64,000 nucleotides of DNA from Bowmanella denitrificans (GTDB taxonomy: Bacteria; Pseudomonadota; Gammaproteobacteria; Enterobacterales; Alteromonadaceae), in assembly GCF_002887595.1 (NCBI RefSeq), contig NZ_PEBU01000008.1, positions 186,001-250,000 on the forward strand. The letters run 5' to 3'. The position numbers and the translations under genes were made by a program. Below the pieces are notes generated by a model. The model did no database searches. It had not been told where the DNA came from and saw only the letters and a program-made list of their open reading frames with translations. Below are positions 15,075 to 62,530 of the stretch, piece after piece (position 1 is the first letter of the stretch; the number at the start of each line of letters is the position of its first letter).

Positions 15075-15159
15075 GATGGCAGATGGCAGATTGAACTGAC
15101 CCCAATAAAGTAGACAAGGGTTGCAAACTATTGTTTTCAAATGCCATAAGCCAGGCTCC

Positions 15160-15376
15160 GCCCGCCAGGGATGGCGGTAGTGCAGAAAACGCAGGAGCAG
15201 TTTTTCTGCCCGTCCATCCCTGGACATCGCCGGTGAATGCTCCTGCTACACCGGCATACGCCCGCCAAGGATGGCGGAAGTGCAGAAAACGCAGGAGCAG
15301 TTTTTCTGCCCGTCCATCCCTGGACATCGCCGGTGATTGCTCCTGCTACACCGGCATACCGTCCATCCCTGGACAT
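15160..15376. repeat. Tandem array of a 100-bp palindromic repeat (array 1)
   Basis: Two copies with an exact 100-bp period (15160-15259 and 15260-15359) differ at only a few bases, followed by an 18-bp partial copy to 15376. Each unit chains hairpins: CCGCCA/TGGCGG, GCAGAAAA/TTTTCTGC, GTCCA/TGGAC and GCCGGTG/CACCGGC. CAGGAGCA/TGCTCCTG offers an alternative pairing across them. The same family recurs at 62331-62530. No coding potential, target duplication or transposase is seen. It lies between the convergent msrQ and DUF3718 genes. Confidence 0.9.
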
Positions 15377-15378
15377 AA

Positions 15379-15404
15379 AAAACCCCGCTGTGTTGCGGGG
15401 TTTT
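15379..15404. terminator. Bidirectional rho-independent terminator
   Basis: AAAACCCCGC pairs perfectly with GCGGGGTTTT around the loop TGTGTT, with T-rich flanks in both directions. It separates the plus-strand msrPQ/repeat side from the minus-strand DUF3718 gene. Confidence 0.9.
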
Positions 15405-62163: not shown

Positions 62164-62190
62164 AAAATGGCTGACAAAAGTACCCAGTGA

Positions 62191-62228
62191 TTTCTGTACT
62201 ACCACCAGGGAGAATGGCTGTACAGAAA
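62191..62228. repeat. Inverted repeat after gltD
   Basis: TTTCTGTAC (62191-62199) pairs with GTACAGAAA (62220-62228), with a 20-base loop, starting 27 bp after the gltD stop. It probably forms a 3' end structure in the gltBD transcript. Confidence 0.55.
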
Positions 62229-62240
62229 ACACCAGGGCAT

Positions 62241-62261
62241 CATAGCCTATGCAAGGCTATG
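62241..62261. terminator. Stem-loop downstream of gltD
   Basis: CATAGCCT pairs with AGGCTATG around ATGCA. There is no long T tract, so it is a weak terminator candidate for gltBD. Confidence 0.45.
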
Positions 62262-62330
62262 GAACAGCTTTAGCTGACCTGCTTTGAGCTACAAAGACGT
62301 AGATCATGATTGTCGACCCACTGCATTGAT

Positions 62331-62530
62331 ATAGCCGATGAATGCTCACTACTACATCGGCATACGAACGCCATGGACATCGCCGATGAGTGCTCCCTGC
62401 AACATCGGCATACGACCACCATGGAGGGTGGAAGTGCAGAAAACGCAGGAGCGGTTTTCTGCCCGTCCTTCCATGGACATCGCCGATGAATGCTCCCTGC
62501 AACATCGGCATACCGTCCTTCCATGGACAT
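62331..62530. repeat. Array 2 of the 100-bp palindromic repeat family
   Basis: Hairpins GCCGATG/CATCGGC occur at 62334-62361, 62382-62409 and 62482-62509. The last two are exactly 100 bp apart. Between them lie CCACC/GGTGG, GCAGAAAA/TTTTCTGC and the GTCC/GGAC element, in the same order as at 15160-15376, and the array ends with the same kind of 18-bp partial copy. The first copy is shortened (48 bp to the next). It sits between convergent gltD and a TonB receptor gene. Confidence 0.9.

Follow-up and report, generated by a model that had tools for sequence, protein, structure and literature searches.

The 64,000-nt stretch of Bowmanella denitrificans DNA analyzed here (hereafter, the window) contains two arrays of short hairpin repeats whose stems differ by paired base changes, raising the question of what keeps these stems paired and what kind of element the repeats represent. 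The first-pass annotation had reported double changes from G-C to A-T at two stems and had offered two causes, selection on the folded form or a copying mechanism that preserves it. The double changes are real at both stems (the two array-1 stems lie inside 15162-15255), and the reading that we favor, with a probability of roughly 0.55, is that the arrays are non-autonomous mobile repeats that work like REP/BIME elements and need their fold for recognition.

Layout of the arrays and of the repeat unit

Array 1 contains a 100-bp repeat twice, each made of a unit A and a unit B of ~50 nt apiece. R1 and R2 below denote the models of units A and B, respectively.

15159..15376, plus strand: array 1, in the order A-B-A-B plus a terminal half unit (the B1 hairpin)
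15159..15209, plus: unit A copy 1 (R1 model match and fold), GGA loops on the plus strand
15162-15166 (CCGCC) and 15173-15177 (GGCGG), plus: arms of P2, the first hairpin of unit A copy 1
within 15159..15209, plus: hairpin P3 of unit A copy 1, its tip carrying GCAGGAGC
15212..15258, minus: unit B copy 1 (R2 model match), formed by hairpins B1 (short) and B2 (long), with its GGA loops on the minus strand
15229-15235 (GCCGGTG) and 15249-15255 (CACCGGC): B2 stem of unit B copy 1, the second stem of array 1
15259..15309, plus: unit A copy 2 (R1 model match)
15312..15358, minus: unit B copy 2 (R2 model match)
15361..15376, minus: terminal B1 hairpin plus AT, the right end of array 1, assigned from sequence and like the ends of other arrays
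15377..15404, no strand assigned: host intrinsic terminator, AAAAAA-CCCCGC...GCGGGG-TTTT, standing without an array in three congeners
62190..62310 (limits approximate), plus: probable degenerate extended unit, CTACCACCAGGGAGAATGG ... AACAGCTTTAGCTGACC..., resembling the extended units at L019, L020, L024 and L250, with no model score
about 62312..62530, plus: array 2 (locus L008), in the order B-B-A-B plus a terminal B1, its right end without an A-tract, unlike most arrays
62312..62364, minus: degenerate unit B (R2 model match, 32.7 bits)
62369..62412, minus: unit B (R2 model match)
62413..62462, plus: unit A with arms CCACC/GGTGG (R1 model match and fold)
62416-62420 (CCACC) and 62427-62431 (GGTGG): arms of this unit A, from sequence
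62465..62512, minus: unit B with arms GCCGATG/CATCGGC (R2 model match)

Throughout array 2 the B stem is the same, with GCCGATG at 62334, 62382 and 62482 and its CATCGGC partners at 62355, 62403 and 62503. In array 1, B2 of unit B copy 2 and the terminal B1 fold into two hairpins, and the repeats fold better than their dinucleotide shuffles, with z scores of -5.8 and -3.7 in array 1 (one per copy) and -5.8 in array 2. A long A-B helix present in the minimum-energy fold was not upheld, the loop letters of A1 and the following B1 being complementary in only 6 of 21 neighbor pairs picked out by eye.

Each unit spans ~50 nt and consists of two neighboring hairpins, both of which have GGA in the loop; the first is short with a six-base ANGGAN loop and the second longer with an AGGA or NNGGA loop. 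Unit A runs from P2 (CCNCC-ANGGAN-GGNGG) through a short linker into P3, a longer stem tipped by GCAGGAGC. On the minus strand, the sequence from B1 into the following B2 has the same order: a short hairpin GTCC-AGGGAT-GGAC, then GGTAT, then a long GGA-tipped hairpin. Because R1, which was built from A only and contains no B sequence, still matches B1-B2 stretches on the opposite strand (L026 at 34.8 bits, E 1.7e-6; L016 at 27.8 bits; L034 at 27.3 bits), we regard A and B as a single architecture that occurs in two orientations. Both orientations thus occur inside arrays, as in the alternating arrangement of REP/BIME, and elsewhere in the genome neighboring units also stand as A-A, B-B and A-B. 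In the A units of the same genome, which were found by similarity, the A and the GGA of the P2 loop are invariant and both N are mixed in 30 of 30 rows; in the cross-species set described below, these letters were imposed by the search pattern.

The unit also occurs in larger forms. An outer stem around P2-P3 scores at least 15 in 24% of 105 copies from other species, against 5% when flanks are swapped between copies, and, among the 80 loci listed from the pattern scan of named genomes, extended forms carry a further GGA hairpin within P3 (e.g., L125, L136 and L160). At L118, L122, L155, L159 and L176, all in other species, the two-hairpin unit lies inside an outer stem that starts GTAGGAG, an arrangement resembling a GTAG-type REP whose loop holds the unit. 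Longer composites with extra hairpins inside P3 (CTCC-ANGGAT-GGAG, AACAGCTTTAGCTGGCCTGC and GCTAC-AGGGA-GTAGC) are found at L018, L019, L020, L024, L250, L260 and window positions 62190-62310, and A may be a shortened derivative of such a composite element. In a sponge-symbiont Methylococcales bin (L185 and L128), the unit repeats head to tail every ~49-52 nt, fivefold at one contig end.

Covariation within and between species

By themselves, the paired changes between the two arrays of the window are little proof, because the copies inside one array are nearly uniform: a single stem type fills 15 of the 18 arrays having at least two B units (L003, L004 and L009 are mixed, as read from the alignment), and the two arrays therefore show about one event per stem. 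The changed stems also sit in different units, one being the short hairpin of A and the other the long hairpin of B. The case shows the reach of covariation in interspersed repeats when copies are not independent.

Alignments from the same genome comprised 24 of 30 A units (six length variants being left out) and 32 of 50 B units. Double changes occur at 5/14 pairs in A, with a covariation score of 0.237 (shuffled 0.102, slid partners at most 0.041), and at 5/11 pairs in B, with a score of 0.276 (shuffled 0.107, slid at most 0.090); for both units the score lies above all 500 shuffles and all six slid controls. Weaker measures discriminate less: the number of double-change pairs was equaled by 10/500 (A) and 22/500 (B) shuffles, and the 8 further pair types in B fall below the shuffled mean of 10.8. 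The cross-species set, consisting of 78 of at least 116 named-record loci (without L156 and L167) obtained with a DNA pattern that constrains neither one of the P2 pairs nor any part of P3, has double changes at 14/14 pairs, with 259 double-change cells, 46 further pair types and a score of 0.463 (shuffled 0.129, slid partners at most 0.083). Over the full set of 116 loci obtained, the unconstrained P2 pair is Watson-Crick in 104 of 128 copies, where shuffles give 47.5 on average and 62 at most; 17 G-T or T-G and 2 A-C are among its mismatches.

As an approximation of R-scape, we used a tree-aware null (FastTree, parsimony substitution counts, alignments simulated on the tree and an APC-corrected G statistic, at E<0.05). 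The covariation above phylogenetic background that had been predicted for an alignment of all copies is borne out across species, where 7/14 pairs are significant. It also holds for the family, with 4/14 (A) and 2/11 (B) pairs in alignments restricted to the best 74 of 101 rows for A and the best 78 of 105 for B, each with 70 distinct rows, and these family alignments, like the cross-species one, were fitted to the model, which favors the model's structure. Within the one genome the prediction stands for B (2/11) and falls for A (0/14, two pairs being at E 0.054); the covariation claim for A would thus fail on this genome alone, and most of the evidence comes from outside the window. Of the off-structure column pairs, 1/1211 passes the same null across species and has the look of a genuine additional pair: columns 1 and 22 (T-A 53, C-G 41, C-A 5, A-A 1, one gap) close P2 over conserved G, A / A, A letters, in which we infer a tandem G.A-type loop.

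Terminators, congeners and spread

Arrays end in a characteristic manner, with half hairpin B1 plus AT placed directly against an A-tract at 24/28 loci of the genome. These are 21 of 24 loci (the exceptions being L008, L018 and L028) together with L312, L313 and L315 of four further B loci, the fourth, L314, having one T between; L316 and L317 are without such a B1-AT end. A strict test for an A-run plus hairpin is passed by 18 of the first 24 loci, as against 11/8473 AT dinucleotides in the window. At 20 loci chosen from the listed R2 matches in 13 related genomes (7 genus groups), the A-tract is present in 20/20, the strict test is passed by 13/20, and a terminator-like hairpin is visible by eye in 20/20. 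Based on ORF calls only, and leaving out L033, the right-hand gene faces the array in 22/23 loci, and the left-hand gene points towards it in 12 loci and away from it in 9, the other 2 having no left-hand gene called.

Comparison of orthologous sites reveals presence and absence between close relatives. Array 1 is missing behind the same left gene (msrQ-like by resemblance) in 4/4 congeners, three of which have the same terminator and downstream flank directly. Of 16 other flanks searched, seven were not recovered as loci and nine were, giving nine further sites (24 loci compared) that are occupied in some congeners and empty in others. Specifically, L025 is empty in 4/4 congeners; at L003, as at L006, two congeners have an array and two have none; three congeners are occupied and one is empty at L014; L011 and L019 each have one occupied and one empty congener; L026 has one empty congener, as does L004, although the empty locus for L004 may be a paralogue; and L022 is empty in G014, the second locus compared for it being too diverged to judge. 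Insertion rather than loss presumably accounts for this pattern, and some of the empty sites could be losses. No target duplication or terminal inverted repeat was evident by eye at the array-1 site, where the congeners are too diverged for exact junctions.

At E<=0.01, the 5.48-Mb genome yields 38 R1 (A) and 59 R2 (B) matches; among the R1 matches, at least one (C12:102635-102684) represents B1-B2 sequence read from the opposite strand, and C11:43773-43820 spans parts of A and B. With stricter filters than in that search, R1 matches 40/147 genomes and R2 49/147 genomes of the family, each in 22/52 genus groups, and R1 matches 19/398 genomes of the phylum, of which 17 belong to the same class, a count that takes in this genome and its family. 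A pattern scan of named genomes found at least 116 stretches, and the 80 listed carry gammaproteobacterial titles or simply 'Proteobacteria', apart from one Spirochaetes and one Verrucomicrobia bin. Similar arrays occur in Bowmanella pacifica (Alteromonadaceae; L160). The pattern found one stretch in viral contigs, and blastn against plasmids and phages returned no match. We describe a structure-conserved repeat family of many gammaproteobacteria, with no Rfam family matched here and a near-fixed place against terminators.

The strand that is kept, and possible causes

If a cruciform or symmetric repair maintained the stems, G-T and A-C mismatches would be expected at about equal numbers; on the GGA strand they are unequal. 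In the family rows selected as above for the tree-aware null, G-U to A-C counts are 26:8 for A and 17:9 for B, the latter taken on the minus strand; across species they are 47:14, or 31:13 when the outermost P3 pair, which may fray, is removed. The asymmetry has p 2.7e-5 across species and is not significant for B alone (p 0.17), and these p values are optimistic since the copies are related. The G-U excess makes selection on one folded strand probable, and such an asymmetry fits RNA and single-stranded DNA alike.

Selection on the sense strand in mRNA was unsupported. Stem integrity of A units is 0.946 where the left gene is co-directional (16 units) and 0.928 where it is opposite (15 units; L021, with no left gene called, left out). 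Across species, the GGA strand is that of the upstream gene in 23/41 cases (p 0.53) and that of the downstream gene in 10/36 (p 0.011), counting one copy per locus in the first 100 of 112 rows (76 loci, 18 inside an ORF). A purely mRNA-level role fits less well, since A stems are equally intact with or without read-in from the left gene and the GGA strand has no upstream-gene bias and runs against the downstream gene.

Under the mobile-repeat reading, new copies would arise only where a putative trans-acting factor can recognize the folded GGA strand, be it RNA or single-stranded DNA, and surviving copies would thus carry compensated stems, which we infer to be the cause of the covariation. 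Within the window's family, arrays usually abut the U-tract of an intrinsic terminator with a fixed orientation; they would grow and be homogenized by local duplication. Several points go against this reading: no mobilizing gene was found, array 2 lacks the A-tract end, and the facts of fold and loop also fit an RNA-level function.

The main rival is such a function, which we regard as possible although unlikely: as RNA, the double hairpins would bind a CsrA/RsmA dimer, the arrays would be sponges or 3'-region control elements, and the stems would covary because the protein reads the loop. Passages of PMC7652899 give the CsrA/RsmE rule as ANGGAN hexaloops, GGA in the loops of short-stem hairpins and bridging of two sites 10-63 nt apart; the P2 loop fits this rule closely, being ANGGAN with neither N constrained, and the two GGA of a unit are spaced by 22 nt, within that range. 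The P3 tip, left free by the search pattern, has GGA in 88/101 copies against 34% after shuffling, but P3 loops of 4-5 bases are not of canonical size. In the 20 other-genus loci (16,120 nt; B arrays), ACANGGATGT occurs 25 times and RUACARGGAUGU 5 times, compared with none of either in the 64-kb window, so that the window's own arrays lack ACANGGATGT. The genome has one csrA, and it is the GGA strand that shows the G-U excess. However, units point both ways in one array, the strand shows no upstream-gene bias and a bias against the downstream gene, and the arrays sit beyond the terminator of the right-hand gene. CsrB/RsmZ-type RNAs, which bind CsrA/RsmA, share the series of GGA-loop hairpins, the ANGGAN hexaloop and the variable stems, whereas the present family is dispersed, in both orientations and at sites that vary between species, with no Rfam match at cut-off (best PrrB_RsmZ score at eight loci, 19.3 bits against a cut-off of 44).

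Template switching and hairpin-primed repair are known to act at quasipalindromes, and such mutational upkeep could keep palindromes perfect without selection on the fold. It would yield paired changes, and the arrays are indeed homogenized; we nevertheless consider it very unlikely, as it is expected to be strand-symmetric, unlike the mismatch counts above, as loops stay fixed while stems drift, and as columns 1 and 22 form an extra covarying pair (C-G or T-A) on the far side of an internal loop that is itself conserved. Between the two causes first proposed, then, selection on the fold of a single strand fits better than symmetric copying, because G-U outnumbers A-C on the GGA strand and the loops are kept as the stems drift. 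That the B1 hairpin following the U-tract is an immobile host accessory, aiding 3'-end formation or blocking read-through, would agree with A-tract abutment in one orientation at 44/48 loci, but is highly improbable given that the same terminators stand without an array in congeners and that A-unit copies occur elsewhere too, one inside an ORF (L104).

Returning to mobile repeats, REP/BIME (GTAG- or CGTC-tagged; RAYT/TnpA-REP) likewise comprise many short hairpin repeats in alternating orientation and mosaic tandem arrays, with single-strand recognition proposed. The present family differs in its two-hairpin ~50-nt unit with conserved GGA loops, in having no constant GTAG or CGTC tag, in the lack of a significant Y1_Tnp link and in an array end usually fixed at a terminator. 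As to the unpaired GTAG/GGAG or CGTC that marks a REP, GTAG precedes P3 in 1/30 aligned A units, and CGTC is lost in ATCC-type B1. Terminators are targets of group IIC introns. These introns insert in one orientation, as the arrays do, beside a DNA stem-loop, a target described in PMC10190682; in contrast to them, the window and eight loci gave no intron RNA match in Rfam, and the genome has no reverse transcriptase (PF00078, 0 matches). MITEs, in passages of PMC10969869, are short, non-autonomous, folding repeats, and presence and absence between related genomes is likewise a shared trait, but no terminal inverted repeats or target duplication were made out by eye at the array-1 site.

Searches for known relatives gave little. 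Rfam returned nothing at gathering cut-offs in the window, and at eight loci, at E up to 5, only cspA at L004 above cut-off, which belongs to the neighboring gene, along with 19 matches below cut-off. We found no account of the repeat or its letters in open-licence literature, and it is not described in passages of PMC7652899, PMC10190682, PMC10969869, PMC9788540, PMC3733652 and PMC2267715 or in the search entries for PMC2817692 and PMC8266576. Y1_Tnp genes are present in 28/40 genomes with an A unit and 59/107 without one (Fisher p 0.13, not significant); one-contig genome G005 has unit copies and no Y1_Tnp match, and in the Bowmanella genome no unit was seen beside the two Y1_Tnp-like genes (part of one flank being masked). 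At L031 (G000:C5:181222-181548), a Y1_Tnp gene has GGAATCGA runs, short repeats of another kind, in its surroundings together with a masked stretch, with no family unit seen.

The family raises two testable questions: what moves repeats in which the usual tags are missing, and whether a global RNA-binding regulator can have binding sites within selfish repeats. In a combined form, which we consider rather improbable, gammaproteobacterial mobile elements at intrinsic terminators, moving without reverse transcriptase or, in at least one genome, Y1 transposase, would have double GGA hairpins that are true CsrA/RsmA sites, forming a self-spreading decoy network that rewires a global regulator.

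Some single copies have other settings. The A-unit copy at L104 lies in an ORF that, judged by resemblance alone, is like that of a type I restriction specificity subunit, and whose frame is seemingly kept open; L099, L108, L111, L113 and L115 are single copies at the 3' end of an apparent EF-Tu gene in several genomes; and L316 (G000:C29, in the same genome as the window) is a lone A-type copy with arms CCTCC/GGAGG just ahead of an apparent 5S rRNA gene.
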